The position numbers and the translations under genes are program-made. Shown here piece by piece: positions 25,932 to 44,221 of a DNA stretch of 64,000 nucleotides. The DNA is from Verrucomicrobiota bacterium (GTDB lineage: Bacteria > Verrucomicrobiota > Verrucomicrobiia > Opitutales > Opitutaceae). A model generated the notes under the pieces. It was not told where the DNA came from. It saw only the letters and a program-made list of their open reading frames with translations, and ran no database searches. Positions within the stretch are counted from its first letter, which is position 1; the number at the start of each line of letters is the position of its first letter. Where the stretch lies: the NCBI GenBank assembly GCA_018239845.1, contig JAFEGO010000010.1, positions 1-64,000 on the forward strand. The letters are read 5' to 3'.

Positions 25932-26021
25932 TCGCCGGGTCAGCGCGTCAGGGTTTCCCTCAATCTTGGGATTGATGCCTGGGGGCTTGCGCGCTCATCC
26001 TGTGCGTTCAACCTTCCCCTC

Positions 26022-26567
26022 ATGAGCCATCCCATCGTCAACGAGACCCAGACCAAGATGAAAAAAGCCGTGGACTACACGCTCCACGAGTTCAGCGCCA
26101 TCCACACGGGCAAGGCCACGCCCGCCATGGTCGAGGGCGTGATGGTTGACGCCTACGGCTCCCAGATGCGCCTCAAGGACTGCGCCGCCATCTCCACGCC
26201 CGACGCCCGCCTCATCCAGATCCAGCCGTGGGACGCCGGTCTCCTCAAGGCCATCGTCAAGGGCATCCAGGAGGCCAACCTCGGCTTCAACCCCGTCCCG
26301 GACGGGAAGGTCGTGCGCATCCCCCTCCCCGAGATGAGCCGTGAGCGCCGCCAGGAATTCGTGAAGACCGCCCACCGTCTCGCCGAGGAGGGCCGTGTGC
26401 ACGTCCGCACCGTGCGCCGCGACTCCTTCGAGGCCGTGAAGCGCGCCAAGCTCCCCGAGGATCAGGTTAACCGCCTGGAGAAGGACATCCAGACCCTCAC
26501 CGACAACTTCATCAAGTCGATCAACGAGCACCTCGCCCACAAGGAAAAGGACCTCCTCGCCGTCTGA
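26022..26567 (+). CDS. frr: Ribosome recycling factor
   Basis: Frr, with EF-G, splits post-termination ribosomes. The 181-aa protein shows the family's VNETQTKMKKAVDYTLHEFS start, HTGKATPAMVEGVMVDAYGS, IQIQPWDAGLLKAIVKGI, NPVPDGKVVRIPLPEMSRER, and a C-terminal helix with KDIQTLTDNFIKSINEHLAHK. Length is normal. It is separated from pyrH by the PEP-CTERM gene. Confidence 0.97.
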   Translation: MSHPIVNETQTKMKKAVDYTLHEFSAIHTGKATPAMVEGVMVDAYGSQMRLKDCAAISTPDARLIQIQPWDAGLLKAIVKGIQEANLGFNPVPDGKVVRIPLPEMSRERRQEFVKTAHRLAEEGRVHVRTVRRDSFEAVKRAKLPEDQVNRLEKDIQTLTDNFIKSINEHLAHKEKDLLAV

Positions 26568-26582
26568 GGCAGGGCTCCGTGG

Positions 26583-26601
26583 CACGGGCGTCCCGCCCGT
26601 G
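26583..26601. repeat. Short GC-rich palindrome after frr
   Basis: CACGGGCG and CGCCCGTG form a perfect 8-bp stem around TCC in the 69-bp gap between frr and proB. It may be a terminator without a T tract or one of the compact GC palindromes also seen at 27774, 54861 and 56869. Confidence 0.5.
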
Positions 26602-26636
26602 GGTTTGAGAATCCGCTTCGTTCCGTCCTTCCGTCC

Positions 26637-27767
26637 ATGGCCTCCAGCCTCCCGCTTCCTGCTGCCCGCAAGCAGCGCGTGATCGTCAAGCTCGGCACCG
26701 GCGTCCTCACGACCGGTGTCGGCCAGCTCGACACCACGCGCATCGCCGCCGTCTGCGCCGAGGTCTCCGCCCTCCGCGCCAAGGGCCACGAGGTCATCAT
26801 CGTCAGCTCCGGTGCCGTCGGCCTCGGCATGGGTGCCCTCCAGCTCACCAAGCGCCCGAAGGATGTCTCCAAGAAGCAGGCCTGCGCCGCCATCGGCCAG
26901 AGCCTCCTCATGCAGACGTGGCAGGCCGGCTTCGCCCCCCACCGCCTGACCGTCGCGCAGGTGCTCCTCACCCATGAGGACCTCCGCGCGCGCGACCGCT
27001 ACCTCGGCATCAAGCACTGCCTCAGCCAGCTGATCGAGTACGGCACCATCCCCATCATCAACGAGAACGACACCGTCAGCGCCGCCGAGATCCAGGCCAT
27101 GCTCCGCTTCGGCGACAACGACACGCTCTCCGCCATGGTCGCGAGTCTTCTCGGCGCGCAGTACCTCGTCATCCTCTCCACCGCCCCGGGCCTCATCGAT
27201 ATGCAGGGCACCAAGGAGATTGTCCCCGTCGTCGAGCGCATCACGCCGGAAATCGAGGCCATGGCCGGTGGCACCAGCAGCGAGACCGCCGTCGGCGGCA
27301 TGGTCTCAAAAATTTCCGCCGCCAAGCTCGCGACGCGCGCCGGCTGCGGCGTCTTCATCGCCAGCGGCTCCGAGCCCGACGTGCTCACCCGCCTCCTCTC
27401 CGGCCGCGGCCCCGGCACCTTCTTCGTCCCCAACGGCCTGCCCCTCGCCGCCCGCAAACGCTGGCTCGCCTACTTCCAGCGCCCCGCCGGCATCATCCAC
27501 GTCAACGAGTGCGCCGTGCCCGTCCTCCGCGAGCAGGGCCGCAGCCTCCTCGCCGTCGGCGTCACGCACGCCTTCGGCACCTTCGGCGTCGGCGAGATCG
27601 TCAACATCGCGGGCCCCGACGGCGCCATCTTCGCGCGCGGCAAGACCGGCTTCGCCAGCGAGGACATCCCCGCCCTCGCCGGCCAGCAGGGCCCCGCCGT
27701 CCGCGCCCTGCACCCCACCCGCAAGCGCCTCGAAGTCGTCCACCGCAACGACCTCGTCCTGCTCTGA
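26637..27767 (+). CDS. proB: Glutamate 5-kinase
   Basis: ProB makes gamma-glutamyl phosphate in proline synthesis. The 376-aa protein has an amino-acid-kinase domain (RVIVKLGTGVLTTG, EVIIVSSGAVGLGMGAL, IINENDTVSAAEI, GTSSETAVGGMVSKISAA) and a C-terminal PUA domain (about 280-370; HAFGTFGVGEIVNIAGPDG), the domain order usual for bacterial ProB. ATG 26637 precedes the first strand by 14 residues, with no Shine-Dalgarno motif visible. No proA is adjacent. Confidence 0.96.
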   Translation: MASSLPLPAARKQRVIVKLGTGVLTTGVGQLDTTRIAAVCAEVSALRAKGHEVIIVSSGAVGLGMGALQLTKRPKDVSKKQACAAIGQSLLMQTWQAGFAPHRLTVAQVLLTHEDLRARDRYLGIKHCLSQLIEYGTIPIINENDTVSAAEIQAMLRFGDNDTLSAMVASLLGAQYLVILSTAPGLIDMQGTKEIVPVVERITPEIEAMAGGTSSETAVGGMVSKISAAKLATRAGCGVFIASGSEPDVLTRLLSGRGPGTFFVPNGLPLAARKRWLAYFQRPAGIIHVNECAVPVLREQGRSLLAVGVTHAFGTFGVGEIVNIAGPDGAIFARGKTGFASEDIPALAGQQGPAVRALHPTRKRLEVVHRNDLVLL

Positions 27768-27773
27768 CGCAGG

Positions 27774-27796
27774 GGCGTCCCGCTCAGCGGGACGCC
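27774..27796. repeat. GC-rich palindrome after proB
   Basis: GGCGTCCCGCT (27774-27784) and AGCGGGACGCC (27786-27796) form a perfect 11-bp inverted repeat with a one-base centre, just after the proB stop codon. There is no T tract. It could act as a transcription barrier or as a mobile palindromic unit. Confidence 0.55.
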
Positions 27797-27850
27797 AGTC
27801 ACCTCCTTCCACCCCAAGCGCCCCCGCCGCAGCTCGCCTCCGCCCGCCTT

Positions 27851-27883
27851 CATTCGCGCCCATTCGCGTCCATTCGCGGTTAA
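27851..27883. repeat. Decamer triplet repeat, single arm
   Basis: CATTCGCGCC, CATTCGCGTC and CATTCGCGGT are three tandem decamers followed by TAAAAATCC. The same ending follows the element at 32497-32529. It lies 14 nt upstream of the GNAT start codon. Confidence 0.75.
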
Positions 27884-27896
27884 AAATCCCACCTCC

Positions 27897-28349
27897 GTGA
27901 GCCCACCGCCCTTCACGCTCGCCCCCGCCACCCTCGCCGACCGCGAGCGGCTCTGGCGCATCAAGAAAAACTGCCTCCGCCACTACGTGGAGGAGACCTG
28001 GGGCTTTTGGGAGGACATCAGCCAGCGCGCCCATTTCGACCAGAACTACGACCTCGACGAGATCCGCCTCATCCTGACCGACGACGGCCAACTCGCCGGC
28101 TATATCGCCTGTGCGCGCACGCCGCCGGAGATCGCGCTGCACAACATCATGATCTCCCCGGGGTATCAGAACCGCGGGCTCGGTACGGCCGTGCTCAAAA
28201 ACCTCCTTGCCGAGGCCCGCGCACAAAAGCTCTCGGTCCGCCTGCAGGTGCTGCGCGTCAACCCCGCCCGCCAGCTCTACGAGCGCCTCGGCTTCACCAT
28301 TTACGAGGAGACGCCGACGCACTTCCGCCTGCGGTGGCAGCCAGCCTGA
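27897..28349 (+). CDS. GNAT-family N-acetyltransferase
   Basis: This 150-aa protein has the Gcn5-related acetyltransferase fold: an N-terminal alpha/beta part, the acetyl-CoA pyrophosphate-binding loop ISPGYQNRGLGTAVLKNLL (about 82-100), and a C-terminal VLRVNPARQLYERLGFTIYE strand-helix typical of RimI-like enzymes. It starts at GTG 27897, just downstream of a decamer repeat. The substrate cannot be told from sequence. Confidence 0.87.
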   Translation: MSPPPFTLAPATLADRERLWRIKKNCLRHYVEETWGFWEDISQRAHFDQNYDLDEIRLILTDDGQLAGYIACARTPPEIALHNIMISPGYQNRGLGTAVLKNLLAEARAQKLSVRLQVLRVNPARQLYERLGFTIYEETPTHFRLRWQPA

Positions 28350-28358
28350 TGCCTTGAA

Positions 28359-28426
28359 GGTAGGAGCGTGCTTGCACGCGATGTTCGGCCCGAGCCGCAG
28401 CCATCGCGTGCAAGCACGCTCCTACC
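28359..28426. repeat. Perfect 25-bp inverted repeat between convergent genes
   Basis: The arm at 28359-28383 (GGTAGGAGCGTGCTTGCACG and five more bases) pairs perfectly with 28402-28426 around an 18-nt loop. It lies between the convergent GNAT and GH127 genes. A related half-copy is at about 30492-30520. It could be a bidirectional terminator or a mobile palindromic repeat. Confidence 0.75.
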
Positions 28427-28449
28427 CCAAGCCGCCCTACCTAACCCCC

Positions 28450-30357
28450 TCACCCCCGCTTCAGCCACACCGCCATCGCCGACGGTCCGCGGTTGGCCCA
28501 CGTGTAGTACGGGATCTCCGTGATCGTCTTCGTCGCGGCGCCCGCGCCGTTCTCGATCGTCAGGATGGTCACGCCTTCGAACAGATCCGGCGCGGCCTTC
28601 GCCTCGACCTTCGCTCCCGCCTTTACGACGAGGTCCGCCGGCACCGTCTGCTTCTCCGGGTCTTCGACGCAGTAAACCACCGGGCCGCGCTCAAAGGCCA
28701 CGCGCCCCTCCTCCGCCGCGATGCGGGTATCGCCGTGCACGGCACGCACCGGCATCGGCAGGTCGAGTTCCACCGTGTCGCCCGCCTGCCAGGCCCGCGC
28801 CAGGCTCACGTAGCCGCCGTCCGCCTGGGCCGGCACCGCCGCGCCATTCACGCGCACGGTCCACGCCGTCGGCGTGGCATCGTCGTAACCATACAGGCCT
28901 GACGCCACCGGCCGGCCCTGCGCCCAGCCCGGGATACGCAGCTTGAGGGTAAACGTCGCCGCCTTCTCCGGCGTCACCGTGAGCTTCACCTGGCCGCTCC
29001 ACGGATAATCCGTCGTCTGCGCCAGCTTCACCTTCGTACCCGCCACACTGGCCTCGCCTTCGCTCTGCGCGTAGAAGTTCACATGCAGCGCGTCGCCGCG
29101 CACCGCGTAGAAATAGCCGGTGATCGCCGCGAGCGTGCGCATGACATTCGGCGGGCAGCACGCGCAGCCGAACCACGGCGCGCGGCCCTCGAAGCCGTGA
29201 TTGAATTTCTTCACGCCGTCGCAGATCAGCGGATTCGGATAGAGGAAGCGGTCGCCCGAGAGCGACACGCCGCTGATAAACCCGTTGAAGCACACGCGCT
29301 CGAACACGTCCATGTAGCGCGCCTCGCCCGTGAGGAGGAACATCCGGTGGTTCCACATCATGAACGCGATGGCCGCGCAGGTCTCGTTGTAGCCGTCCTG
29401 CGGCAGCTCGTAGTCCGCGCCGTAGGCCTCGCCGTGCTGCAGCGCGCCGACGCCGCCGGTCAGGTACATCTTCCGCTCCGCCGCGCTCTCCCAGATTTTC
29501 TTGATCGCGGAGACGTAGCGGGCGTCGCCCGTCAGCGCCGCGATGTCCGCCATGCCGGCGTACATGTAGTTCGCGCGCACCGCGTGGCCCACCGCCTCGT
29601 CCTGGTCCACCGCGAGCTTGTGCTGCTGGCTGTAAACCTTGCCGCCCGGCCCGCGGGCCTCGATGAAGATCTGCGCCAGCTCGAGCCAGCGTTTGTCGCC
29701 GGTCACGTGATAAAGTTTTGCCAAGCCGATCTCGATCACCTGGTGCCCCGGCGCGATGCGCAGCTTGCGGTCGCCAAAGTCGTGCCAGACGAGCTCGGCG
29801 CTCTTCAGGCACACGTCAAGCAGCGTGCGTTTGCCCGTGGCGAGGTAGTGCGCCACGCCCGCCTCGTACATGTGGCCGAGGTTGTAGAGCTCGTGGCTCA
29901 GGTCGGGGTCCTTCAGCCAGCGCTGCGGGTCGATCCACTCATGCGCCGGCGTGTCCGGGTGCATCGTGCGGAAGGTGTAGATATAGCCATCCGGCTCCTG
30001 TGCCGCCGCGATGCGCGCGATCCAGCCGTCCAGCGCCTGGTCGAGCGCCGGGTCGGGCCGCATGCTCAGCACGTAGGACGCGCCTTCGATCACCTTGAAC
30101 ACATCCGAGTCGTCGAATGGGTACAGCGTCGCCGGCTTGTTTTGGAAGGTCTTCTCGCCCGCCGCGCGCCGGCGCAGCGTCTCCGCCGCGAGGTCGAAGT
30201 TCTTCATGCGGTTCGTGTCCTCGCATTGCTTGAGCGCGAAGGGCGTGGTGACCGCGCGGTTGGTCTCCTGGCGCTTTTGCCAGAAGCCGCCCGTGATACG
30301 GACGGCGGTGAACGGGACCGGCTGAACCGGGTAATCGGAGGTCGGGGAGGCGCTCAT
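28450..30357 (-). CDS. GH127-family glycoside hydrolase (beta-L-arabinofuranosidase-like)
   Basis: This 635-aa protein has an (alpha/alpha)6-barrel core and C-terminal beta domains. In the GH127 enzyme HypBA1 a zinc ion is held by one Glu and three Cys, and one Cys is the nucleophile. The equivalent residues appear here as E325-T-C327 (YNETCAA) and C400-C401 (FGCACCPPNVMRT), with C398 in addition. It begins MSASPTSDYPVQPVPFTAVR with no signal peptide, so it probably acts in the cytoplasm. The longer frame to 30690 covers a repeat-rich intergenic stretch. Role: release of arabinose from glycan fragments, inferred from the family. No transporter or regulator lies beside it. Confidence 0.88.
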   Translation of the reverse strand: MSASPTSDYPVQPVPFTAVRITGGFWQKRQETNRAVTTPFALKQCEDTNRMKNFDLAAETLRRRAAGEKTFQNKPATLYPFDDSDVFKVIEGASYVLSMRPDPALDQALDGWIARIAAAQEPDGYIYTFRTMHPDTPAHEWIDPQRWLKDPDLSHELYNLGHMYEAGVAHYLATGKRTLLDVCLKSAELVWHDFGDRKLRIAPGHQVIEIGLAKLYHVTGDKRWLELAQIFIEARGPGGKVYSQQHKLAVDQDEAVGHAVRANYMYAGMADIAALTGDARYVSAIKKIWESAAERKMYLTGGVGALQHGEAYGADYELPQDGYNETCAAIAFMMWNHRMFLLTGEARYMDVFERVCFNGFISGVSLSGDRFLYPNPLICDGVKKFNHGFEGRAPWFGCACCPPNVMRTLAAITGYFYAVRGDALHVNFYAQSEGEASVAGTKVKLAQTTDYPWSGQVKLTVTPEKAATFTLKLRIPGWAQGRPVASGLYGYDDATPTAWTVRVNGAAVPAQADGGYVSLARAWQAGDTVELDLPMPVRAVHGDTRIAAEEGRVAFERGPVVYCVEDPEKQTVPADLVVKAGAKVEAKAAPDLFEGVTILTIENGAGAATKTITEIPYYTWANRGPSAMAVWLKRG

Positions 30358-30491
30358 GGGGTGGATCGTGGACAGAGAAATTTCCGGCCGCCCATCCCGC
30401 GCGGTCCCGCCGCCTCCATCAAGGCTTAAAGCAGTATCATTCAGTGATGACGCACCGAACGCGGCACTCCACCCGAGCGCAATAAGCCCGA

Positions 30492-30607
30492 GGTAGGTTG
30501 CGTGCTTGCGCGCAACGACGCTGCCCCTCCGCCGGTGGCTCAGCTCCAACCATATTACGCCAAGAAGCCTCGCGCCCATTTCCGTGTCTTCCGTGTGTTC
30601 CGTGGGC
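30492..30607. repeat. Repeat remnants between GH127 and DUF885 genes
   Basis: Within the 256-bp gap (30358-30613), positions 30492-30520 resemble one arm of the 28359 palindrome (GTAGGTTGCGTGCTTGCGCG). Positions 30579-30607 hold three 9-bp units TTCCGTGTC, TTCCGTGTG and TTCCGTGGG. I see no gene here. Confidence 0.6.
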
Positions 30608-30613
30608 CACAAC

Positions 30614-32392
30614 TCACTGCGCAAACCGCCACGAGGCCTTGTAGTCCGCGGGCAGCTTGTCGCCGCGGAGGCGAGCCCGGACCATTTCAATCGGCATCGG
30701 TCCGCCTTGCATGATGCGGTCGTGAAATTCCTGCAGCGGCATCCCGCCCTTTTCCACGAGGTCGTGGTGCAGCGCGCGGAGTTGCAGCGCGCCCATCATG
30801 TAGCCGACCTGGTAGAGCGGCGACCACGAGCCGTTGAACGAGCGGCGCACTTCGCCCGTCGCCGTGTGCCGGTCGTGGCCCACGCGGTCCACGAGGAAGT
30901 CGATGCACTGCTGCGGCGTCCATTTGCCGAGGTGGAAGTTGAGCGAGAAGATGATGCGCGCGCAGCGGTGCGAGCGCCAGAAGAGCGCCCCCGCGCGGTC
31001 CAGCGGGTCCTTTGAGGTGTAGCCGCGATCGTACATCTGGAACTCCCACCAGAGCGCCCAGCCTTCCATCCAGAAGGGCGTCTCGAAGATCTTCCGCTGC
31101 GGCTGGTAGCGCGCCGACATGAAGAACTGCAGGCTGTGGCCCGGCACCAGCTCGTGAAACACCGTGGCCTTCGCGAGGTGGATGTTGTTTGCCCGCAGGC
31201 TGTCGAGCTTGGCCTGCTGCGTCATGTCCGAGGTGGGGAACGAGACCCAGATCTCCTCGCCGCCCAGGAAGAAGGGCGCCGTCTTCTGCTCCTCCGGCGT
31301 CATCATCTTCATCCGCCACGTGTCCGCCGCGAGCGGCGGGATCGTGATCATCTTGTTTTTCGTCACGTAATCAATCGCCTCGCGCGCGAGGTCGCGCACC
31401 AGCTCCGGCTGACGGCCCGGCGCCACGTAGTCGTTCTTCATCTTCTCCAGCGCGGCCTTCCAGTCGTCGCCGAGGCCGAGCTCCTTCGCCGTGCGTTTCC
31501 ACTCCTTGTCGCACCACTCGAACTCGCGGTTCGCGATCTCCAGCAGCTCCTCCGGCGTGTAGGCGATCTGTTCGTGCTCCAGCTCCTCCATCAGGCCTCC
31601 GCGCCCCACCGGGTCGCCGACGATCGGGTCGTCCTCGCCTTTCTTCACCCCCACGATCTTCTCGCGCAGCACGGCCTTGTAGTCCTTCAGCCCGTCGCTG
31701 AGTTTTTGATACGGGTCCTTCGCCCACCAGCTGAAGAGCGGGTCGTAGCCATCGTAGAATTTGTACCAGTCCTCCAGCGCATCGCCCAGCTCCCCGAGCT
31801 TCCCCGCCGCCCGCAGCGCCACGATCTTCGTCACGCCCGGTGACGATTTCTCCAGCCCGGCCTCAACCGCCTTGCGCGCATCGGCGAGCTGCTGGCTGAG
31901 CTTGTTCAGCGTCACCGCCGCCGCCTTCGGGTCCATCGCCGTCAGCAGCCGCCGCGACTCCTGCAACTCCGCGATGCCCTCGGCAAACGGCAGCAGCGCC
32001 GCCATCTCCTCGCCCTTCTTCCGCTCACGCGCGAGCACGCGGAGTTCGTAAGTGATCTCCGAGCGCAGCAGCACGTAGTCCACGCGGCCCTCGACGCCGA
32101 GTCCGTCAACCGGCACCGCCGCGAGCTTCTGCTGCCACGTCTCAAAAAATGCCTGGAAGGTCTTATCGTAGCTCGCCGAGTGCGTGACACTGTAGAACCG
32201 CTGCAGCCGCTCGTGGTCCTCCGTGTACCGCTCCACGAGTTCCCGCAGCTCGCTCACCTGCCCTTTCGGCGTCACCGCGAGATCCGGCACGTAAGCCGCC
32301 GGATCGCGCGACGCCAGCGTCGGATAAGTTTCTGCCGCAACCGCCGCGGACGTGAGGGTAAGCAGGGCCAGGGCGAGCCGGGGATAAAGCAT
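30614..32392 (-). CDS. Secreted DUF885-family putative zinc metallopeptidase
   Basis: This 592-aa protein begins with a signal peptide (MLYPRLALALLTLTSAAVAA). The helical body matches the DUF885 family, with the putative zinc motif HELVPGHSLQ (about residue 420) followed by PFWMEGWALWWEFQMYDRGY, whose Glu could be the third ligand, and the C-terminal YQVGYMMGALQLRALHHDL. DUF885 proteins are generally treated as gluzincin-like carboxypeptidase relatives without a defined substrate. ATG 32392 starts the signal peptide; the ten extra upstream residues are not hydrophobic. Confidence 0.83.
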   Translation of the reverse strand: MLYPRLALALLTLTSAAVAAETYPTLASRDPAAYVPDLAVTPKGQVSELRELVERYTEDHERLQRFYSVTHSASYDKTFQAFFETWQQKLAAVPVDGLGVEGRVDYVLLRSEITYELRVLARERKKGEEMAALLPFAEGIAELQESRRLLTAMDPKAAAVTLNKLSQQLADARKAVEAGLEKSSPGVTKIVALRAAGKLGELGDALEDWYKFYDGYDPLFSWWAKDPYQKLSDGLKDYKAVLREKIVGVKKGEDDPIVGDPVGRGGLMEELEHEQIAYTPEELLEIANREFEWCDKEWKRTAKELGLGDDWKAALEKMKNDYVAPGRQPELVRDLAREAIDYVTKNKMITIPPLAADTWRMKMMTPEEQKTAPFFLGGEEIWVSFPTSDMTQQAKLDSLRANNIHLAKATVFHELVPGHSLQFFMSARYQPQRKIFETPFWMEGWALWWEFQMYDRGYTSKDPLDRAGALFWRSHRCARIIFSLNFHLGKWTPQQCIDFLVDRVGHDRHTATGEVRRSFNGSWSPLYQVGYMMGALQLRALHHDLVEKGGMPLQEFHDRIMQGGPMPIEMVRARLRGDKLPADYKASWRFAQ

Positions 32393-32446
32393 ACCCCCGT
32401 TAAACACACCCCGACCCCGCACGTCAAAGCCGGGAATTACCAGTCC

Positions 32447-32529
32447 TTAACCACGGATGGACGCGGATGCACACGGATAAAGGAATGAGCGGTTCGTATC
32501 CGTGTGCATCCGCGTCCATCCGTGGTTAA
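32447..32529. repeat. Perfect 33-bp inverted repeat of decamer units
   Basis: Arms 32447-32479 and 32497-32529 are perfect inverted copies around a 17-nt loop. The right arm reads as three decamers of the type ATCCGTGTGC, ATCCGCGTCC and ATCCGTGGTT, then AA. It lies between the divergent DUF885 and Lgt-like genes and is the best-preserved copy of the dispersed family. Confidence 0.9.
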
Positions 32530-32586
32530 AAATCCGTCCTTCCCCTCCGCCGCCCCAGCCGCAACGCTCCTCGTACTCACCCCGCC

Positions 32587-33354
32587 ATGACGTTTCCTGT
32601 TTACGTCAATCTCTTCGGCCGGCCGCTCCACCCTCACCTTGTGTTCGAGGCGCTCGGCTATTTCGCCGGCGCGCGGCTCTACTTCTCCCTGCGCCGCCGA
32701 CAGCGTGAGGCCGCCCTGCCCCTCGAACAAAATCTGTGGCTCCTCGTCGGCTGTGTCTTCGGCGCCTGGCTCGGCTCCAAGCTTCTCGCCTGGGTCGAGT
32801 CGTTTCACCACTACCTCGGTCTCCTGCACACCGACCCCGCCGCCCTCATGGGCGGCAAGACCATCGTCGGCGGCCTCCTCGGCGGCTGGGCCGGCATCGA
32901 GTTCGCCAAGGCCCGCCTCGGCCTCACGCGCTCCACGGGCGACACCTTTGTCTGGCCGCTCGCCGTCGGCACCGCCATCGGCCGGCTCGGGTGCTTCTTC
33001 ACCGGGCTCTCCGACCAGACCTACGGCATCGCCACTTCCCTGCCGTGGGGCGTGGACTTCGGCGACGGCGTCCTCCGCCACCCCACGCAGCTCTATGAGA
33101 GCGGCTTCGTCCTGCTGCTCGCCTTGGCGATTCATTTCGGTACGCGCCATCGCCCGCTGCCGGCCGGGGCGCGTTTCCGGCTCTACTTCGCGGGCTACTT
33201 CGCCTTCCGTTTCTGCATCGAGTTCCTGAAGCCCCGCGAAACGCCCCTCGTTTTCCTCAGCGCCATCCAGCTCGCCAGCCTTGTTGGCGTAATCCTCGCC
33301 CTCACCTCGCTCCGCCGCCTCCCATGGACCGCCCCTACCTCTACGCCGAACTGA
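32587..33354 (+). CDS. Lgt-like polytopic membrane protein (divergent prolipoprotein diacylglyceryl transferase homologue)
   Basis: This 255-aa protein has about seven hydrophobic helices. Lgt-family motifs are clear: GRLGCFFTGLSDQTYG (about 137-152) and HPTQLYESG (about 166). The loop that in E. coli Lgt reads SFHGGL, with essential His103, reads here GGKTIVGGLLGG, so that His is absent. The helix that carries Arg239 in E. coli reads IEFLKPRE. It is therefore probably not the lipoprotein-modifying Lgt but a paralogue acting on another lipid. It overlaps the radical SAM gene by 31 nt, which implies translational coupling. The E. coli residue numbers are from memory of the published enzyme. 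Confidence 0.83.
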   Translation: MTFPVYVNLFGRPLHPHLVFEALGYFAGARLYFSLRRRQREAALPLEQNLWLLVGCVFGAWLGSKLLAWVESFHHYLGLLHTDPAALMGGKTIVGGLLGGWAGIEFAKARLGLTRSTGDTFVWPLAVGTAIGRLGCFFTGLSDQTYGIATSLPWGVDFGDGVLRHPTQLYESGFVLLLALAIHFGTRHRPLPAGARFRLYFAGYFAFRFCIEFLKPRETPLVFLSAIQLASLVGVILALTSLRRLPWTAPTSTPN

Positions 33355-34748
33355 CCAATTCCCTTTGCTCGCACTGCCTGCGCAAGGTCGAGGCCAAGGT
33401 CATCATCCAGGACGACCGCGTTTACCTCGACAAGCGCTGCCCCGAGCATGGCCGCGAGCGCGTCCTCATCTCCACCGATGTCGAGTACTGGCACCAGACG
33501 CGCCGCTTCCTCAAGCCCGGCCAGCTCCCGCGCAAGTTCAACACCCCCATTTTGCACGGCTGCCCCTACGACTGCGGCCTCTGCGCCGACCATGAGCAGC
33601 ACTCCTGCCTGACGCTCCTCGAGGTCACCGACTCCTGCAATCTCTCCTGCCCCATCTGCTACGCCGAGTCCTCGCCGAAGCGCACCACCCACCGCACGCT
33701 GAAACAGATTGAGTTCATGCTCGATGCCATCGTCCGCAACGAGGGCGAGCCTGACATCGTGCAGATCTCCGGCGGCGAGCCCACGCTGCACCCCGAATTC
33801 TTCGCCATCCTCGACGCCGCGAAGCGCCGTCCGATCAAGCACCTCATGCTCAATACGAACGGCCTCCGCATCGCGCAGGACGCCGAGTTCGCCAAGCGTC
33901 TCGCTGACTACGCTCCGGGCTTCGAGATCTACCTCCAGTTCGACTCCCTCCGGCCCGACCCCATCCGCGTCCTCCGCGGCGCCGACCTGCTCGACATCCG
34001 CCGTCGCGCCCTCGACCGGCTCAACGCCCTCAACCTCTCCACCACGCTCGTCTGCACCTTGAAAAAGGGGCTCAATGACCAGGAGCTCGGCGAGATCGTG
34101 GACTTCGCCCTCACCCAGCGCTGCGTCCGCGGCGTCACCTTCCAGCCGATCCAGCATGCGGGCCGCTCCGAAAATTTCGACCCCGCCCGCGACCGCCTCA
34201 CGCTCTCCGAGGTCCGCCAGAATCTCCTCGCGCAGTCCAAGATCTTCCGGCCCGACGACATCATCCCTGTCCCCTGCCACCCCGACTGCCTCGCGATGGG
34301 CTACGCCCTCAAGCTAGGTGGCAAGGTCACGCCCCTCACCAGCCTGATCCCCCGTGACACCCTGCTCCGCGGCGAGGGCAGCACCATCGTCTATGAGCGC
34401 GACCCGGAGCTGCGCTCTGCGGTCTTCAACCTTTTCTCGACGCACCACTCGCCCGAGAGCGGGGCCGACGCCCTCCGCCAGCTCCTCTGCTGCCTGCCCC
34501 TCGTGCAGGCTCCCGCCGCCCTGAGCTACGAGAATATCTTCCGGGTGCTCATCATCCAGTTCCTCGATGCGCACAACTTCGACGTCCGCAGCGTGAAGAA
34601 GAGCTGCATCCACATCGCGCACCCCGACGGCCGCATCATCCCCTTCGACACGTACAACCTCTTCTACCGCGACGGCAAGGAGGCCGCCTGGCGCCAGGCC
34701 GTCAATCCCACCCCACCCGCCCATGGACACGCCCCCGCCCCCGTCTGA
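33324..34748 (+). CDS. Radical SAM enzyme of the COG1964 (Tes/MJ0619-like) family
   Basis: This 474-aa protein has an N-terminal metal-binding module (C15, C18, C39, H42). A second cluster follows (HGCPYDCGLCADHEQHSC; C80, C84, C87), then the radical SAM motif CNLSCPIC (C105, C109, C112) and the SAM-binding GGEP (ISGGEPTLHPE). Further cysteines (CHPDC, CCLPL) lie in the C-terminal part. This order matches COG1964 proteins, which include MJ0619-type methylases and archaeal tetraether synthase Tes; Tes joins lipid tails through carbon-carbon bonds. Pairing with an Lgt-like protein suggests a membrane lipid substrate. The actual reaction is unknown. Confidence 0.88.
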   Translation: MDRPYLYAELTNSLCSHCLRKVEAKVIIQDDRVYLDKRCPEHGRERVLISTDVEYWHQTRRFLKPGQLPRKFNTPILHGCPYDCGLCADHEQHSCLTLLEVTDSCNLSCPICYAESSPKRTTHRTLKQIEFMLDAIVRNEGEPDIVQISGGEPTLHPEFFAILDAAKRRPIKHLMLNTNGLRIAQDAEFAKRLADYAPGFEIYLQFDSLRPDPIRVLRGADLLDIRRRALDRLNALNLSTTLVCTLKKGLNDQELGEIVDFALTQRCVRGVTFQPIQHAGRSENFDPARDRLTLSEVRQNLLAQSKIFRPDDIIPVPCHPDCLAMGYALKLGGKVTPLTSLIPRDTLLRGEGSTIVYERDPELRSAVFNLFSTHHSPESGADALRQLLCCLPLVQAPAALSYENIFRVLIIQFLDAHNFDVRSVKKSCIHIAHPDGRIIPFDTYNLFYRDGKEAAWRQAVNPTPPAHGHAPAPV

Positions 34749-35025
34749 ACCACCGCCGGTCGCCCCCCGCTCCCGCGGACCCATCCTCGGCGGTTTTCTC
34801 GTCGGTGCGGTGATCTGGCTACTCCCGCCCGCAGTCGCCTTGCTACAGCCGAAGGACGGTTACGCGGTGCTCCCTTTCCTGATCTTCGCGTCGCTACTGC
34901 TTCCGCCCGTCAGCCTCATCCTTGCACTTATACCCAACACCCGGCGCGTCGGCCTCGGCCTGCTCCTCGCCTGTGGCCTCGGCTGGCTGATCCTCGGCGC
35001 CATGTGCGGCGGCCTCATTCGTTAA
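34723..35025 (+). CDS. Small Pro-rich membrane protein A of the radical SAM operon
   Basis: This 100-aa protein has a Pro-rich N-terminus (DTPPPPSEPPPVAP) and three predicted transmembrane helices (about 22-42, 48-70 and 77-97). It overlaps the end of the radical SAM gene by 26 nt. I recognise no family. The next gene has the same plan (Pro-rich start, then helices), and the two may be diverged paralogues. Confidence 0.68.
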   Translation: MDTPPPPSEPPPVAPRSRGPILGGFLVGAVIWLLPPAVALLQPKDGYAVLPFLIFASLLLPPVSLILALIPNTRRVGLGLLLACGLGWLILGAMCGGLIR

Positions 35026-35037
35026 ACCGTACAACCC

Positions 35038-35337
35038 ATGAGCGACGATCCCGCCAAACTCAGCCCGGCAGAACCACCGCCGCTCCCGCCGAAAAAGGAC
35101 CCCGGCTCCGTCATCGCCGGCATCGTAATCTACATTGTGTCTTTGGTGCTGATGGCTGCCATGGCCCAAATCCGCTACTTCAATCTTGTCCCGCCGGTTC
35201 TTTTCGTCGCCCTGGTCATTTATGATATTTCCAGCGGCGGCTGGAATCGCACCCACACGGGCATCCTGATCGGTCTCCTGCTGACCGGCGGCGCGCTTTT
35301 GCTGCTCTTGAGCATCTGCGGCGGCCAACATTACTGA
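35038..35337 (+). CDS. Small Pro-rich membrane protein B of the radical SAM operon
   Basis: This 99-aa protein begins SDDPAKLSPAEPPPLPPKKD and then has about three hydrophobic helices (about 23-43, 48-65 and 75-93). It lies 12 nt after the previous small membrane protein and ends before a hairpin terminator. I recognise no family. Its position makes it the probable last gene of the Lgt-like/radical SAM unit. Confidence 0.66.
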   Translation: MSDDPAKLSPAEPPPLPPKKDPGSVIAGIVIYIVSLVLMAAMAQIRYFNLVPPVLFVALVIYDISSGGWNRTHTGILIGLLLTGGALLLLLSICGGQHY

Positions 35338-35342
35338 ACGAT

Positions 35343-35368
35343 GGCCGGCCCGTCCGTCCGGGCCGGCC
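35343..35368. terminator. Hairpin between convergent genes
   Basis: GGCCGGCCCG (35343-35352) and CGGGCCGGCC (35359-35368) form a 10-bp stem with a 6-nt loop between the radical SAM operon and the convergent TonB receptor gene. There is no T tract; it could serve both directions. Confidence 0.6.
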
Positions 35369-35376
35369 TGAACAAC

Positions 35377-37281
35377 TCAGAACTTCCACTCGGCACCCGC
35401 AAACACCGCGCAGCCGGGCGAAGGATAGCCGTTCACCGCTTCGTACTTCTCATCGAGCGCGTTTTCGATCCGCGCCTTGAGCGCGAGCCGCGGGTTCACC
35501 TGCCACGCCACATAGACGCGCGCGACGGTGCAGTCCTCGGCCTTGATCGTGGCAAACGTGGCCGCATCCACATCCTGCCGGTCGGCCATGAAGCTCAGGC
35601 CCGCGCCCGCGCTCACGCCGTGGCCGAAGTCGTGCCACAGGTCCGAGGTAAACGAGTGCCGCGGCCGGCGCAGCAGGCGCGCGTGCGTGCCCAGATTTTC
35701 CGCTTCCAGATAGGTGTACGCCGTGCGCAGCTCCACCGCGCCGGGCAGCGCGAGCTTGGCGCTCAGTTCCACGCCCTGCGTGCGGGCGCGGTCGGCGTTG
35801 ACCACCGTGCTCGGGTAGGCAGCGAAGTCGTATACGATCAGGTCCGAGTACGTCGTCTCAAACCACGTCGCGCTCAGCGTGCCGCGTTTCTCCGGGAGGT
35901 AGAAATCGACGCCCGCATCCCAGCCGTGCGCCTTCTCCGACCGCAGGTGCGGGTTGCCGACGTAGTAGGCGTCCGTGCCGTAGAGGTCCAAAAAGCTCGG
36001 CGCGCGAAACGCCGTGCCGTAGCTCGCGCGCAGCTTCACCGTCTGCTGCGCAATGAGCCAGGCCGCCGTCGCCCGCCCGGTCGTGGCGCGGCCGAAGGTG
36101 TCGTAGTCGTCGCTGCGCAGGCCCGCCGTGAGGAAGACGTTTTCCACCGGCGTGAACTCATCCTGCGCAAAAAACGCGAGCAGCGACTGCCGTTTGTCGA
36201 TCAGGCCGAAGCCGTCGGTCTTCGTGTGCGTCGCCTCGCCGTTGACGCCCGCCGTGATGCGGTGGCCTTCGAGGCCCTTGTACGTCGTCTGCCAGTCGAG
36301 CACCGCGCGGCGGTTGCGCAGCGTGGTCGTGGCCGAGGGTGAGCCGTACGGCGGATTCGGCGCCGGGGTCTCCGTGACGAACCGGCGTTCCTGGTCGCCC
36401 AGCGTCAGCCGGCTCGACCACTGCTCCGAGGGATCGAACTCCGCGAACACCGTCGCGAGCACGTTGTTCTCGCGCTCGCGGTTGTTGGGGTCGTCCGTGT
36501 AGCGGTCACCCGGGTCCTCGTAGTCGCTGCGCAGCCAGCGGAGCGTGGCGCTGACGTTGACCGTCGAGGTCACCGTGCGGTCAAGCCGCAGGGCCGCGTT
36601 CGTCGAGGTGAAATCGTTGTTCGCGCGCTGGTTTTCCGTGGTGCCGCCGCTGACCGACACCGCGTAGCCCCACGCGTCCTGCGCGCCTTGCGCGGTGAGC
36701 GCGCCGTTGACCGTGCCAAAGCTGCCGGCCTCGGCCGACACGCTCGCCGTCGGCGCGCCCCGGCCGCGCTGCGTGCCGATGGCCACCACGCCGCCGACCG
36801 CCTCGCCGCCGTAGAGCGTGCTCTGCGGCCCGTGCACGACTTCGACGCGGTCGTTGGCGCCGAGGCGCGCACCGCCGAGGAAGACCTGGTAGTCGGCGTT
36901 GGGGTCGTTGAGGCGGATGCCATCGACCATGAAGAGGGTTTGGTTGGAATTCGCCCCGCGCATGAAGAGCGAGGTGATCGAGCCGGCCGCGCCGCTCGGC
37001 GTCGGCGGTGCGCCGGTGACCAGGCCGAGCAGGTCGCTGACGCGTGTGACTTGCATGCGGTCCGCGTCGGCGGCGGTCACGACGTCCGTGACGGCCCCGA
37101 GGTGTTTGGCGGGCTCCGTCGTGCGCGTGGCGGTGACGGCATAGTCGTCGAGCACCGTCGGCGGCGCATCGGCGTTTGATCCCGGCGGCGCGGTCTGGCC
37201 GCGGGCCGTGAGGAGCGTCGCTGCGACGCACAATAGAGGTACGATCCGTCCCGGCAGGCGGGACAGCAGGTGGATTTTCAT
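35377..37281 (-). CDS. btuB: TonB-dependent outer-membrane receptor, BtuB-like (cobalamin uptake)
   Basis: This 634-aa outer-membrane receptor imports corrinoids through the TonB system if the riboswitch association is right. It has a signal peptide (about 1-27), a TonB-box-like YAVTATRTTEPAK, a plug domain (about 50-165; LFMRGANSNQTLFMVDGIRL, VEVVHGPQSTLYGGEAVGGV), and a 22-strand beta-barrel ending in aromatic KF (GAEWKF). The length matches BtuB-like receptors. ATG 37281 starts the signal peptide. It is preceded by a cobalamin riboswitch and diverges from metH. Confidence 0.9.
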   Translation of the reverse strand: MKIHLLSRLPGRIVPLLCVAATLLTARGQTAPPGSNADAPPTVLDDYAVTATRTTEPAKHLGAVTDVVTAADADRMQVTRVSDLLGLVTGAPPTPSGAAGSITSLFMRGANSNQTLFMVDGIRLNDPNADYQVFLGGARLGANDRVEVVHGPQSTLYGGEAVGGVVAIGTQRGRGAPTASVSAEAGSFGTVNGALTAQGAQDAWGYAVSVSGGTTENQRANNDFTSTNAALRLDRTVTSTVNVSATLRWLRSDYEDPGDRYTDDPNNRERENNVLATVFAEFDPSEQWSSRLTLGDQERRFVTETPAPNPPYGSPSATTTLRNRRAVLDWQTTYKGLEGHRITAGVNGEATHTKTDGFGLIDKRQSLLAFFAQDEFTPVENVFLTAGLRSDDYDTFGRATTGRATAAWLIAQQTVKLRASYGTAFRAPSFLDLYGTDAYYVGNPHLRSEKAHGWDAGVDFYLPEKRGTLSATWFETTYSDLIVYDFAAYPSTVVNADRARTQGVELSAKLALPGAVELRTAYTYLEAENLGTHARLLRRPRHSFTSDLWHDFGHGVSAGAGLSFMADRQDVDAATFATIKAEDCTVARVYVAWQVNPRLALKARIENALDEKYEAVNGYPSPGCAVFAGAEWKF

Positions 37282-37399
37282 GGCAGGCTTGCTGTGGCTT
37301 GGGCAAGGGCCCGCGCGCCGCCGTCGCCGGCCGCGCACCTGCCCTCACGCTTCATTTTTTGCGATGAAGTTTTGGCGGCCGGCGCGCGCAATCGCACCG

Positions 37400-37605
37400 T
37401 CCGCGTGAGCAACCCCGGGCCAGATATTCGGACTCCGCATGTGTGGTCGTTGATGACGACCGCCTCGCCCGCGCCTTCACCCCGACCGAAGTCGGGATTG
37501 GCTTTGCCCACGCCGTCAGCGGACGTGGTGCAGGTTTGTGATGCGATACCGCAGCGCAACTGTGGCCGGTTCCCACGGCCTTCCCTGATTCCCGTGATTC
37601 TCTGA
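37400..37605 (-). promoter_or_regulatory. Cobalamin riboswitch upstream of btuB
   Basis: On the minus strand the leader contains the conserved elements in order: AGGGAAGGCCGTGGGAAC (around 37570-37586), GTTGCGCTGCGGTA (37547-37560), then the B12 box AGTCCGAATATCTGGCC (37418-37434). A possible expression platform lies between the box and the gene: CTTCAT/ATGAAG pairing at 37350-37369 flanked by GC-rich arms. In this RNA class cobalamin binding normally represses the downstream gene. Confidence 0.88.
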
Positions 37606-37739
37606 AAGAACGCTGACGCCACCCATCCCGCGCACGCTTCGCGCCGGCCGCAAGGGCAATCTTTAGCATACGCATCAACGCATCACAATTTGTAGATATG
37701 ATGACTTGCCAACCATCCCGCGATCGATAGTGTCCGATA

Positions 37740-41552
<3,813 letters not shown>

Positions 41553-41562
41553 GGCGCGGACC

Positions 41563-42294
41563 ATGTCCTCCGTCCAAGCCCACTACGATCAGCTGCTCGG
41601 CCCGGTCTACACGTGGATGGCCGGCGGCTGGAACGCTGCCCTCGCGCGCAACTGCGCCCTGCTCGACTCGCTCGGTCTCGCCACCTGGCCGCGCGGCACT
41701 GCCGTCGATCTCGGCTGCGGCTCCGGCTTCCAGACCATCCCGCTCGCCGACGCCGGCTTCGACGTCCTCGCCCTCGATCTCTGCGCCTCCTTGCTCGCCG
41801 AGCTGCGCACCCGCGCCGGTGCCCGCTCCATCCATACCGTCCAGGGCGACCTGCTGAACTTTCCCGCCCATCTCACCGGCAATGCCGCGCTGATCGTATG
41901 CATGGGCGACACCCTCACGCACCTCCCCTCCGTCGGCGCGGTCGCCGCCCTCATCCACTGCGCCGCCGCCTGCCTCGCGCCAGGCGGCCGGCTCGTCCTT
42001 GGTTTCCGCGACCTCGCAACCCACGAGCTCCAAGGCCCGCAGCGTTTCATCCCCGTCCGCAGCGAGCCCGTCCGTATCTTCACCTGCTTCCTCGACTACC
42101 GCCCGGATCATGTCGAGGTCAGCGACCTCATCCACACCCGCAACGGCGACCAGTGGCAGCTCGCCAGCAGCACCTACCGCAAGCTCCGCCTCACCGCCGC
42201 CCAAGTCGGCGCGTTGCTCACCACCGCCGGCCTCACCCTCGAGCACAGCTCCACCGAGCAGGGTGCCGTCCGCCTCGTCGCGTTGCGATCCTGA
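41563..42294 (+). CDS. SAM-dependent methyltransferase
   Basis: This 243-aa class I methyltransferase has the motif I AVDLGCGSGFQTI (about 47-59), motif II LALDLC (about 70), and motif IV VCMGDTLTHLPS, followed by a C-terminal beta-rich half. It follows metH by only 10 nt and is probably cotranscribed, so it would consume the SAM produced downstream of methionine. The substrate is unknown. Confidence 0.82.
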   Translation: MSSVQAHYDQLLGPVYTWMAGGWNAALARNCALLDSLGLATWPRGTAVDLGCGSGFQTIPLADAGFDVLALDLCASLLAELRTRAGARSIHTVQGDLLNFPAHLTGNAALIVCMGDTLTHLPSVGAVAALIHCAAACLAPGGRLVLGFRDLATHELQGPQRFIPVRSEPVRIFTCFLDYRPDHVEVSDLIHTRNGDQWQLASSTYRKLRLTAAQVGALLTTAGLTLEHSSTEQGAVRLVALRS

Positions 42295-42414
42295 GCCTGA
42301 TTGTTCCCGCTGTCGCCGGAAAATAGTACAACGCGCCGGCGAACCTGACGCTTCGACCCGGGTCCGTGGCAGAGGGAGCAAATCCCTCAACCCTCAAACC
42401 AAAGGAGAACCGTC

Positions 42415-42591
42415 ATGCTACGCTGGGCACTCATATTCTTTATCGTGGCCATCATCGCCGGTCTGCTCGGCTTCACCGGTATCGCCGGTGCCGCCGCCAG
42501 CATTGCGAAGATCATCTTCATGATCTTCGTGGTTCTGCTGCTCATCGCGCTCCTCGCGGGTGCGCTCAGCGGCAAGCCGCCGGCGCCCTGA
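42415..42591 (+). CDS. DUF1328-family small membrane protein
   Basis: This 58-aa two-helix membrane protein begins [20 protein letters not shown] and continues [20 protein letters not shown], the standard DUF1328 pattern of an Ala/Gly-rich hinge between hydrophobic helices. It has one of the clearest ribosome-binding sites in the window (AGGAG, 7 nt before the ATG). DUF1328 proteins are common in stress-related loci, with no defined function. Confidence 0.85.
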
Positions 42592-42612
42592 GTCAGCCAC
42601 GACTGACTTGCC

Positions 42613-42679
42613 TTCACCCCAAGGCCGCAAAGGCCGGCGGAGATTCATGCCTCCGCCCGCTCCGCGGCCTCGGGGTGAA
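42613..42679. repeat. Long imperfect hairpin after the DUF1328 gene
   Basis: TTCACCCCAAGGCCGC (42613-42628) pairs with GCGGCCTCGGGGTGAA (42664-42679), and inner GGCGGAG/CTCCGCC sequences can extend the fold. It fills most of the gap before the next small gene and may be a terminator or structured RNA element. Confidence 0.55.
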
Positions 42680-42737
42680 TTCCTTTGACCACACTGCGCG
42701 CTTGACGGCGGCGGCGATTGCGGGAGCCCTTGGCCCC

Positions 42738-42977
42738 ATGAGTACGCCGACCGAGGAGAATTTTAAGGACTACAAGCGGGCCGAGAAAAAGGCCTTGGAG
42801 CTCCTGCGCGAGATGCAGGCCGTGAGCCCCAAGAAAAACGACATCGAGCTCGCCCTGCTCGTCGCGATCTTCGAACTGCACAAGGGTGCCCTGCCCCCGC
42901 AGACCGTCGCTTCGGTGATCCAAGGTCACCTCAAGCAACTGCTGCCCTTCTACGCCGGCAAGCCCGCCACGGGCTGA
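42738..42977 (+). CDS. Small hypothetical protein
   Basis: This 79-aa soluble, helical protein (EENFKDYKRAEKKALELLRE, then ELALLVAIFELHKGALPP) has a charged N-terminal half and a hydrophobic C-terminal helix pair. I recognise no family. The ATG at 42738 begins the part with normal composition; the same frame continues upstream into the preceding hairpin region, which I do not count. Confidence 0.55.
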   Translation: MSTPTEENFKDYKRAEKKALELLREMQAVSPKKNDIELALLVAIFELHKGALPPQTVASVIQGHLKQLLPFYAGKPATG

Positions 42978-43074
42978 GCGTCCCTTGTTTGTGAAACGCC
43001 TGTAACCCCTTCAGGTCAAAGGGCTTCACATTTGTACTGCATCCGGCACGACGAGTGCTCAGGGTGAGGTCATC

Positions 43075-43557
43075 ATGACCGCCTTCACCCTGTTTCACGT
43101 GGCGCTGAGTCTGGTTGGTATCATCACGGGGTTTGTCGTGGCCTTCGCCATGCTCTCCTCCCGTTCGAACCCCCGCATGGTCGCTGTCTTCCTGTGGACC
43201 ACCCTGCTCACCTCGGTGACGGGCTTCTTCTTTCCCTTCCACAGTTTCACGCCGGCGATCGGCGTCGGCATCCTCTCGATCCTCCTTCTCGCCCCGGTCT
43301 TCTACGCCCTCTACTCGCGCAAGCTCGCGGGCTCGTGGCGCTGGATCTACGTGATCGGCTCTCTCGTGGCGCTCTACTTCAATTTCTTCGTTCTGATCGT
43401 GCAGTCTTTCCTGAAGATCCCCGCGCTGCACGCGCTGGCACCGACCGGCCAGGAACCGCCCTTCGCCGCCACCCAAGGCCTCGCGCTCATCGGCTTCATC
43501 GTGCTGATCGTCCTCGCGACCAAGCGTTTTCACCCCTCCGCCCCGGCCGCCGCCTAA
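43075..43557 (+). CDS. Hypothetical integral membrane protein
   Basis: This 160-aa protein has about five predicted transmembrane helices (for example AFTLFHVALSLVGIITGFVV, VFLWTTLLTSVTGFFFPF, GVGILSILLLAPVFYALY). I recognise no named family. It begins after a 97-bp gap rich in short direct repeats and ends before the convergent methyltransferase gene. Confidence 0.65.
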   Translation: MTAFTLFHVALSLVGIITGFVVAFAMLSSRSNPRMVAVFLWTTLLTSVTGFFFPFHSFTPAIGVGILSILLLAPVFYALYSRKLAGSWRWIYVIGSLVALYFNFFVLIVQSFLKIPALHALAPTGQEPPFAATQGLALIGFIVLIVLATKRFHPSAPAAA

Positions 43558-43570
43558 GCGGACCAGCGCC

Positions 43571-44221
43571 TCAGTTTTTCACCACGTAGGTCAGCCACCA
43601 GCGCGGCCGCTCGTAGCGGATCACCAGATTCTCCGCATAGGGCCGCAACAGCTCCTGGAGTTCCTCCGAAGTGAAATACGTCTTCACGATCTCGTAGGTA
43701 CCGCCTTCCGGCAGACGACGGATCTCGTAGGAGTCGTGCGTCGCGAGCTTGCTATAGTACGGGTCCGCATCATCCGGCCGCCGGATATCGTCGGCCAGCA
43801 GCACCCGCGCCCCCGGTTTCAGTCGCGCGTGAAACACCGTGAAAAACTCGCCCCAGCGCGCCAGCGGGATGTGCGACACCCAGTGCATCGCAAAACCAAA
43901 GTCAAAGCGCCCTTCCCTCACACCTGCCAGCGCATACGCATCCTCCCGTTGAAACCGCGCCCGCTCGATCTGCTGCCCCTGCGCGATGGCCAGCATCTCC
44001 TCCGAAAAATCCGTGGCCATCATCTCGCTCGCACCAGGAGCGACAAACCGCGTCCAGTAACCCGTGCCGCACGCGATCTCCAGCACCGCACGTCCGGCCG
44101 ACTCCGCCCGCAGCGCAGTGACAATCTCCAGCAACTGACCCGCCGGCGGAGTCGCGAGGCCCTTGGCCATATGCGGCGCCCGCGCATTGTAGTAGGCCTG
44201 CATCGAATCAGGGGCGCTCAT
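43571..44221 (-). CDS. SAM-dependent methyltransferase
   Basis: This 216-aa class I methyltransferase has motif I VLEIACGTGYWTRFV (about 45-59), acidic MATDFSEEMLAIA, and MHWVSHIPLARW near the centre. The start at ATG 44221 is chosen from the run MSAPDSMQAYYNARAPHM; M7 (44203) is an alternative. It is downstream of the DUF1579-like gene on the same strand (43-bp gap), so the two may be cotranscribed. The substrate is unknown. Confidence 0.8.
   Translation of the reverse strand: MSAPDSMQAYYNARAPHMAKGLATPPAGQLLEIVTALRAESAGRAVLEIACGTGYWTRFVAPGASEMMATDFSEEMLAIAQGQQIERARFQREDAYALAGVREGRFDFGFAMHWVSHIPLARWGEFFTVFHARLKPGARVLLADDIRRPDDADPYYSKLATHDSYEIRRLPEGGTYEIVKTYFTSEELQELLRPYAENLVIRYERPRWWLTYVVKN

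Follow-up and report, generated by a model that had tools for sequence, protein, structure and literature searches.

A recurrent bacterial cassette of an Lgt paralogue, a Tes-like radical SAM enzyme and a cysteine-tailed small membrane protein, with a possible role in membrane modification

Introduction

What brings together, in overlapping genes, a relative of the prolipoprotein diacylglyceryl transferase Lgt and a radical S-adenosylmethionine (SAM) enzyme related to the tetraether synthase Tes? The question is raised by a stretch of 64,000 nucleotides (nt) from a Verrucomicrobiota bacterium (assembly GCA_018239845.1, contig JAFEGO010000010.1, positions 1 to 64,000; hereafter the window), in which an Lgt-like gene, a Tes-like radical SAM gene and two genes for small membrane proteins follow one another. 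The original prediction, made from this DNA, suggested that the first two products may modify a membrane lipid or lipid-anchored molecule in a reaction undefined in Verrucomicrobiota, and listed the small membrane proteins as neighbours.

Bacterial Tes homologues have no established function; they are listed as candidate makers of branched glycerol dialkyl glycerol tetraethers (brGDGTs), which serve as climate proxies (PMC8941075; PMC11868695). They occur in organisms not known for biphytanyl chains (PMC9433317), were proposed by Zeng et al. to make brGDGTs (PMC8941075), and were used, with caution, as brGDGT candidates in a metagenome survey (PMC11868695). No paper describing the Lgt-radical SAM pair or triplet was found in the open-access literature, subscription papers and preprints lying outside the search. 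The present analysis makes it near certain that the Lgt paralogue, the radical SAM enzyme and the small membrane protein form a real module, found in about ten phyla.

Recurrence and distribution of the cassette

Recurrent co-occurrence of the two genes had been named in the original prediction as one check on their association. GTDB was scanned with a radical SAM profile, using one genome per species, and the best 80 loci, at 60-81% identity, were compared; some of the hosts are metagenome-assembled genomes, whose labels may be wrong. An Lgt-like open reading frame (ORF) lay on the same strand in 74 of these 80 loci, in 60 of them within 60 nt of the radical SAM gene or overlapping it, and for five of the remaining six loci the genome held the Lgt paralogue elsewhere or at a contig end, so that 79/80 carried both. 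The loci span Bacillota, Cyanobacteriota, Pseudomonadota, Acidobacteriota, Planctomycetota, Bacteroidota, Verrucomicrobiota, Elusimicrobiota and Melainabacteria. Actinomycetota are included through plasmids of Mycobacterium branderi and M. avium, on which the set recurs with a radical SAM identity of about 32%, in the order 'prolipoprotein diacylglyceryl transferase family protein', small, small, 'radical SAM protein'. Co-occurrence is therefore strong, and the module is not peculiar to Verrucomicrobiota.

Within single phyla the same association was seen. Among 194 cyanobacterial genomes, eight held the radical SAM gene, seven the Lgt paralogue and seven both (Fisher p 4e-12), which refutes a coincidental neighbourhood. 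A radical SAM search of 387 genomes of the window's phylum returned 17 carriers, and in most of the closer ones an Lgt-like gene adjoins the radical SAM gene or lies near it. Both sampled phyla have few carriers: about 4% of the cyanobacteria (8/194) and about 3% of the window's phylum, the latter figure resting on roughly a dozen genomes out of 387 with a radical SAM gene of the Lgt-linked type. At the metH-TonB-receptor locus the cassette is present in the window and in G023, another genome of the window's family, and absent from G008. The small number of carriers and this presence or absence at one locus fit an accessory unit that moves horizontally.

The Lgt paralogue

The Lgt-like protein belongs to the Pfam family LGT (PF01790; 92.4 bits, gathering score 24.9) and lies below the cut-off of NCBIfam lgt (TIGR00544; 48.7 bits, cut-off 118.9). 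Its AlphaFold2 (AF2) model, with a mean predicted local distance difference test (pLDDT) of 92.4, matches E. coli Lgt (5azb) over 237 of 255 residues at Z 14.8 and a root-mean-square deviation of 4.4, and this was the sole strong structural match in Foldseek/VIA-align searches; rhodopsins and prenyltransferases (Z about 5-6.6) were rejected as kin and taken as helical-bundle background.

Residues of 81 paralogues were compared with those of 31 housekeeping Lgts, using E. coli Lgt numbering. Arg143, Tyr235, Arg239 and Gly154 are kept in 81/81 paralogues, position 243 is Asp or Glu in 80 and position 246 is Lys or Arg in all; Arg143, Tyr235, Arg239, Glu243 and Arg246 are essential or nearly so in E. 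coli Lgt (PMC4728403). The original prediction had read Arg239 as missing, but the window motif YFAFRFCIEFLK (Y-x3-R-x3-E-x2-K) aligns with E. coli Y235-R246 and matches Y235-x3-R239-x3-E243-x2-R246 residue for residue. The loss of His103, which it had also reported, stands. That position is Val in the window protein (GGKTIVGG), also when aligned with the 31 housekeeping Lgts, and His occurs there in 0/81 paralogues (Val in 69, Ile in 6), the surrounding segment reading G-[KR]-[TS]-x-x-G-[GA] with a conserved Lys/Arg-Thr/Ser; the housekeeping set has His in 20 and Tyr in 9 of 31. Glu151 is also lost in the paralogues, and Asn146 is Cys in all of them, a change which many single-copy Lgts share and which is therefore not diagnostic. 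Because the phospholipid-site residues Arg143, Tyr235 and Arg239 are retained and His103 is gone, the paralogue may have kept phospholipid binding and changed its handling of the acceptor.

A stronger-scoring Lgt is also present in 26 of 27 carrier genomes (135-280 bits, against 55-112 for the radical SAM-linked copy), and the window's own genome has a separate housekeeping Lgt. In the tree, all radical SAM-linked Lgt-like sequences, the mycobacterial one included, fall on one side of a branch with a Shimodaira-Hasegawa-like approximate likelihood ratio test (SH-aLRT) support of 100. As a separate observation, a housekeeping-type Lgt lies within a longer open frame in L011 (G047; 638 amino acids, aa) and L013 (G148; 488 aa), possibly a fusion or an open upstream frame.

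The radical SAM enzyme

The kinship with Tes claimed by the original prediction was borne out by sequence (E 8e-64 against 7tol; profile 6.7e-90) and by fold, the whole protein superimposing on Tes 7tom with TM-scores of 0.81/0.77, whereas other radical SAM enzymes reach about 0.4 and peptide maturases, also at about 0.4, resemble it in the core alone. The best NCBIfam score was that of TrsS (NF045646; 330 bits, cut-off 490, residues 11-452 aligned), followed by tetraether synthase (NF045702; 284 bits, cut-off 450); since both lie under their cut-offs, the enzyme was filed as neither.

Two sets were examined, a window group of 83 sequences and a wider Lgt-linked set of 32. The ligands of the rubredoxin site, of the [4Fe-4S]N cluster and of the CX3CX2C radical SAM cluster are each conserved in 83/83 sequences of the window group, and the more distant Lgt-linked enzymes lose N-site ligands (Cys at the C80 position in 25/32, His at the H83 position in 24/32). 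The position of Tes Tyr459 is Ile in 83/83 sequences of the window group, whereas at the Met439 position 55 sequences have Met, 21 have Val, 5 have Ile (the window protein among them) and 2 have Leu. Both residues are completely conserved in archaeal Tes, Tyr459 across about 1000 archaeal homologues, and the M439A variant of Tes is still active (PMC9433317), so that of the two Tyr459 alone weighs much. Since this strictly conserved residue is absent, Tes-type tail coupling cannot be assumed for the cassette enzyme. In the Lgt-linked set, the C470 position is Asp in 18/32 and the C338 position is not Cys in 11/32; the window group has three additional invariant cysteines, C318, C389 and C390, which together with the change at C470 suggests a remodelled C-terminal cluster. 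A single origin of Lgt linkage is neither supported nor contradicted by the radical SAM tree.

Related radical SAM genes were also seen in other settings. On a Mycolicibacterium vanbaalenii plasmid (L179, 4971-7339) and a Haloarcula plasmid (L182, 3974-6177), one is directly followed by a class I methyltransferase gene; neither has an Lgt-like neighbour, and both are Tes/TrsS-like. At L064 (G372:C198, 344-9698), two Tes-like radical SAM genes stand with fatty-acid-synthase-like neighbours: two genes each for a short-chain dehydrogenase and a ketoacyl synthase, and one each for a FabA-like protein and an acyl carrier protein. This cluster, which has no Lgt-like gene and in which one radical SAM copy keeps the Tes Tyr459 equivalent, is a candidate for lipid coupling in bacteria.

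The small membrane protein

In 60 of the 80 loci, the gene for a small protein with two or more predicted transmembrane (TM) segments lies immediately downstream of the radical SAM gene. The presence of such proteins had been noted in the original prediction; instead of bystanders, they are a recurrent third component with a conserved Cys near the C-terminus. These proteins are very short and variable at the N-terminus, and none had a Pfam family above threshold. A Cys stands 5-17 residues before the C-terminal end in 57/60, where the Cys content of the remaining sequence of these proteins would predict 13% (p ~5e-46 if the loci were independent, which they are not). Lys or Arg occurs at -28 to -16 before this Cys in 56/57, and the stretch from -14 to -1 is uncharged in 54/57; Leu at -5 (88%), Asn at -3 (56%) and Ala or Gly at -2 (74%) and -1 (72%) complete the pattern. 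The Cys is the single conserved residue of a ligand kind, with no other conserved ligand.

The Cys-tail pattern is kept in the mycobacterial and Persicobacter proteins, and both G023 small proteins end a few residues after a Cys. Tandem second copies occur in the window, G023, L069, L114, L128 and L129. When the positive-inside rule is applied to the Lys/Arg-rich stretch, the near-C-terminal Cys would lie close to the outer leaflet, on the side towards which the Lgt site opens. At L102 (8425-8925) and L037 (9157-9939), the small protein adjoining the cassette is extended at its N-terminus by a CxxC..CxxC segment that, judged by eye, resembles a zinc ribbon.

Gene layout and surroundings in the window

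The four ORFs and their overlaps, described in the original prediction, agree with the ORF coordinates (Table 1): the genes run head to tail, the Lgt-like and radical SAM genes overlapping by exactly 31 nt and the latter and the first small-protein gene by 26 nt, with the second small-protein gene starting 12 nt past the first. Chance ORFs and coincidental overlap were rejected, because the four-gene layout is kept in G023 at 74-80% identity and same-strand pairing recurs across loci. Besides the LGT match, Pfam returned Radical_SAM and Zn_ribbon_HMPTM on the 474-aa protein.

Table 1. Cassette features in the window
Feature	Position	Strand	Basis
Lgt-like integral membrane protein, 255 aa	32587..33354	+	PF01790 92.4 bits, AF2 model, residue table, clade
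GGKTIVGGLLGGWA segment, P0001 residues 89-102, at the position of the Lgt HGGL arm-2/TM3 motif	32851..32892	+	
Tes-family (COG1964 / class D) radical SAM enzyme, 474 aa	33324..34748	+	PF04055 and PF23545
Radical SAM enzyme domains, N to C: rubredoxin-like ribbon, N auxiliary cluster, radical SAM CX3CX2C, putatively remodelled C-terminal cluster domain			
Small Pro-rich membrane protein 1, 100 aa, C-terminal ..NTRRVGLGLLLACGLGWLILGAMCGGLIR with Cys near the C-terminus	34723..35025	+	ORF, family pattern, G023 orthologue
Small Pro-rich membrane protein 2, 99 aa, C-terminal ..NRTHTGILIGLLLTGGALLLLLSICGGQHY with Cys near the C-terminus	35038..35337	+	ORF, tandem copies elsewhere

Just upstream of the cassette, at 32451-32525, is a perfect inverted repeat with 29-nt arms (CCACGGATGGACGCGGATGCACACGGATA) separated by 17 nt. 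It is a dispersed repeat resembling repetitive extragenic palindromic (REP) elements, as the genome has 23 sites matching its 19-nt core and none matching the reversed control. A cobalamin riboswitch was sought around the neighbouring metH, and no Rfam match over the cut-offs was found in 26000-44000. A defence system was rejected, PADLOC having given viperin models on the generic radical SAM core alone (47.6 bits, residues 100-195) and nothing on the other proteins.

Four loci of the window's phylum carry an ICMT/PEMT-like membrane methyltransferase gene inside the cassette, all on the reverse strand (L036, 10090-10746; L038, 10353-10955; L037, 10641-11537; L065, 6022-7011). The CaaX-like methyl-ester step which this gene suggested is given little weight, the gene being absent from nearly all other loci.

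Proposed mechanism and alternatives

The core idea that a phospholipid-handling Lgt relative works with a Tes-like radical SAM enzyme at the membrane is supported by the near-obligate pairing across about ten phyla, the kept phospholipid-site residues and the presence of most Tes metal ligands, so that the original prediction is partly supported. We tentatively favour, at somewhat less than even confidence, a reading in which the Lgt paralogue lipidates the Cys of the small protein and the Tes-type enzyme modifies the lipid or the conjugate. The cassette would then be a self-contained, horizontally spread, three-component membrane-modification unit. Its Lgt paralogue would be a phospholipid-dependent transferase with the Lgt fold and phospholipid site, and the dedicated acceptor would be the Cys at the end of the last TM helix of the small protein, a helix which, with its positive cytoplasmic loop, hydrophobic stretch, small residues and Cys, would resemble a lipoprotein signal peptide. 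A glyceryl or diacylglyceryl group may be placed on this Cys at the outer leaflet. The radical SAM enzyme, expected to be cytosolic, may take a hydrophobic chain into a putative tunnel and act by radical C-H chemistry, whether coupling, methylation or cross-linking, on the lipid donor, the small protein or the conjugate; the product would be a lipid-modified mini membrane protein or short lipopeptide. For the radical SAM enzyme, such a role is supported by the whole-length Tes fold and by the E. coli phospholipids found in the Tes tunnel (PMC9433317). A bolder version, possible in our view and held with distinct reserve, is an undescribed post-translational lipidation encoded by a mobile cassette in some ten phyla: a dedicated, His-less Lgt paralogue would attach a phospholipid-derived group to the near-C-terminal Cys of a tiny polytopic membrane protein, and the Tes-type enzyme would afterwards change the lipid chains by radical chemistry, yielding a lipopeptide or membrane anchor without known parallel.

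Several points weigh against lipidation of the small protein. The main difficulty is topological, as the radical SAM enzyme is expected to be cytosolic and the Lgt site faces outward, leaving a shared substrate unexplained. His103, the proposed activator of the acceptor thiol, is absent, and the enzyme may not use a thiol. An adjacent small membrane protein was not detected in 20/80 loci, the strict lipobox pattern fits just 5/57 of the cysteines, and the gene order differs in the mycobacterial and f40 loci.

The main rival, which may be true but which we would not put forward with confidence, confines the chemistry to lipids: the Lgt paralogue and the radical SAM enzyme would make a modified (e.g. 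tail-coupled or tail-methylated) phospholipid, and the small protein would be a non-substrate subunit recruiting the radical SAM enzyme to the membrane, its Cys a catalytic nucleophile or a metal or cluster ligand replacing His103. This would suit the retention of phospholipid-site residues with loss of the acceptor-activating His, the very short small protein with its variable N-terminus, and the fact that Tes has free lipids as its substrates and can bind phospholipids of bacteria (PMC9433317). The layout of charge, hydrophobic stretch and small-small-Cys is, however, closer to a lipoprotein signal peptide than to a metal site, with one Cys and no further conserved ligand, and tandem divergent copies suit substrates at least as well as subunits. 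The small proteins could also be peptide substrates of the radical SAM enzyme, in the manner of ribosomally synthesised and post-translationally modified peptides, with the Lgt paralogue a dead scaffold or chaperone holding the C-terminal helix. Many radical SAM enzymes act on small peptides, the small-protein genes adjoin the radical SAM gene and can be duplicated, and the paralogue has lost His103 and Glu151 and has Cys for Asn146; but a dead scaffold would not keep Arg143, Tyr235, Arg239, Glu/Asp243 and Lys/Arg246 near-invariant, and the enzyme resembles Tes over its full length and peptide maturases in the core alone (TM 0.81 against about 0.4), which makes this reading unlikely.

Tes homology by sequence and fold, the conservation of all rubredoxin, N-cluster and radical SAM ligands in the window group, and the earlier proposal of bacterial Tes homologues as brGDGT candidates (PMC8941075; PMC11868695) might instead point to a bacterial tetraether or brGDGT-type tail coupler, with the Lgt paralogue incidental. 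We consider this improbable, given the near-obligate Lgt-paralogue linkage, the replacement of Tyr459 by Ile throughout the window group, the variable Met439 and the differing C-cluster positions. To our knowledge, moreover, hosts such as cyanobacteria, Paenibacillus and Xanthomonadales are not known for membrane-spanning lipids. That the Lgt-like gene is simply a second housekeeping Lgt in a coincidental neighbourhood, as its shared Pfam family and fold would allow, is very improbable: it belongs to a separate clade without His103 in any member, scores 49 against 119 bits for NCBIfam lgt, has a stronger-scoring Lgt elsewhere in its genomes, and co-occurs with the radical SAM gene far beyond chance in one phylum (p 4e-12).

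Implications

Genomic context sets a large group of bacterial Tes homologues apart, by a dedicated Lgt paralogue, a Cys-tailed membrane protein and a missing Tyr459. Lgt linkage can thus serve as a marker for sorting bacterial Tes matches, and the split between linked and unlinked genes could re-sort the brGDGT candidates. The favoured reading of the cassette offers an alternative to the view that bacterial Tes relatives make membrane-spanning lipids and, if lipidation proves true, would open a new branch of bacterial lipoprotein chemistry; the three-gene system is compact and testable in easily grown bacteria.

Comparison with known systems

With archaeal Tes (GDGT-MAS; MJ0619) the cassette enzyme shares its whole-length fold, and the window group conserves the rubredoxin C-C-C-H site, the [4Fe-4S]N C-C-C-H site and the radical SAM cluster. 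Unlike Tes, the window-group enzyme lacks Tyr459, does not have Met439 fixed and has changed C-terminal cluster positions; its hosts are without archaeal lipids, and it has a near-obligate Lgt-like partner. The TrsS radical SAM (seleno)protein is its top NCBIfam match, yet one below the cut-off.

The C-terminal helix of the small protein is like a lipoprotein signal peptide in its Lys/Arg-rich start, about 15 uncharged residues, small residues and Cys, but stands at the C-terminus, the Cys being followed by about 5-17 residues, and usually has Asn at -3.

With E. coli Lgt (5azb), a phosphatidylglycerol:prolipoprotein diacylglyceryl transferase, the paralogue shares the fold, the start of the GRxG signature, the HPTQLYE motif and Arg143, Tyr235, Arg239, Glu or Asp243 and Lys or Arg246. 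It differs in having Val or Ile for His103, preceded by a conserved Lys/Arg-Thr/Ser, His for Tyr26 in most members, an invariant new Lys at the A117 position and Cys for Asn146 (as in some single-copy Lgts), and the paralogues form a separate clade linked to a radical SAM gene.

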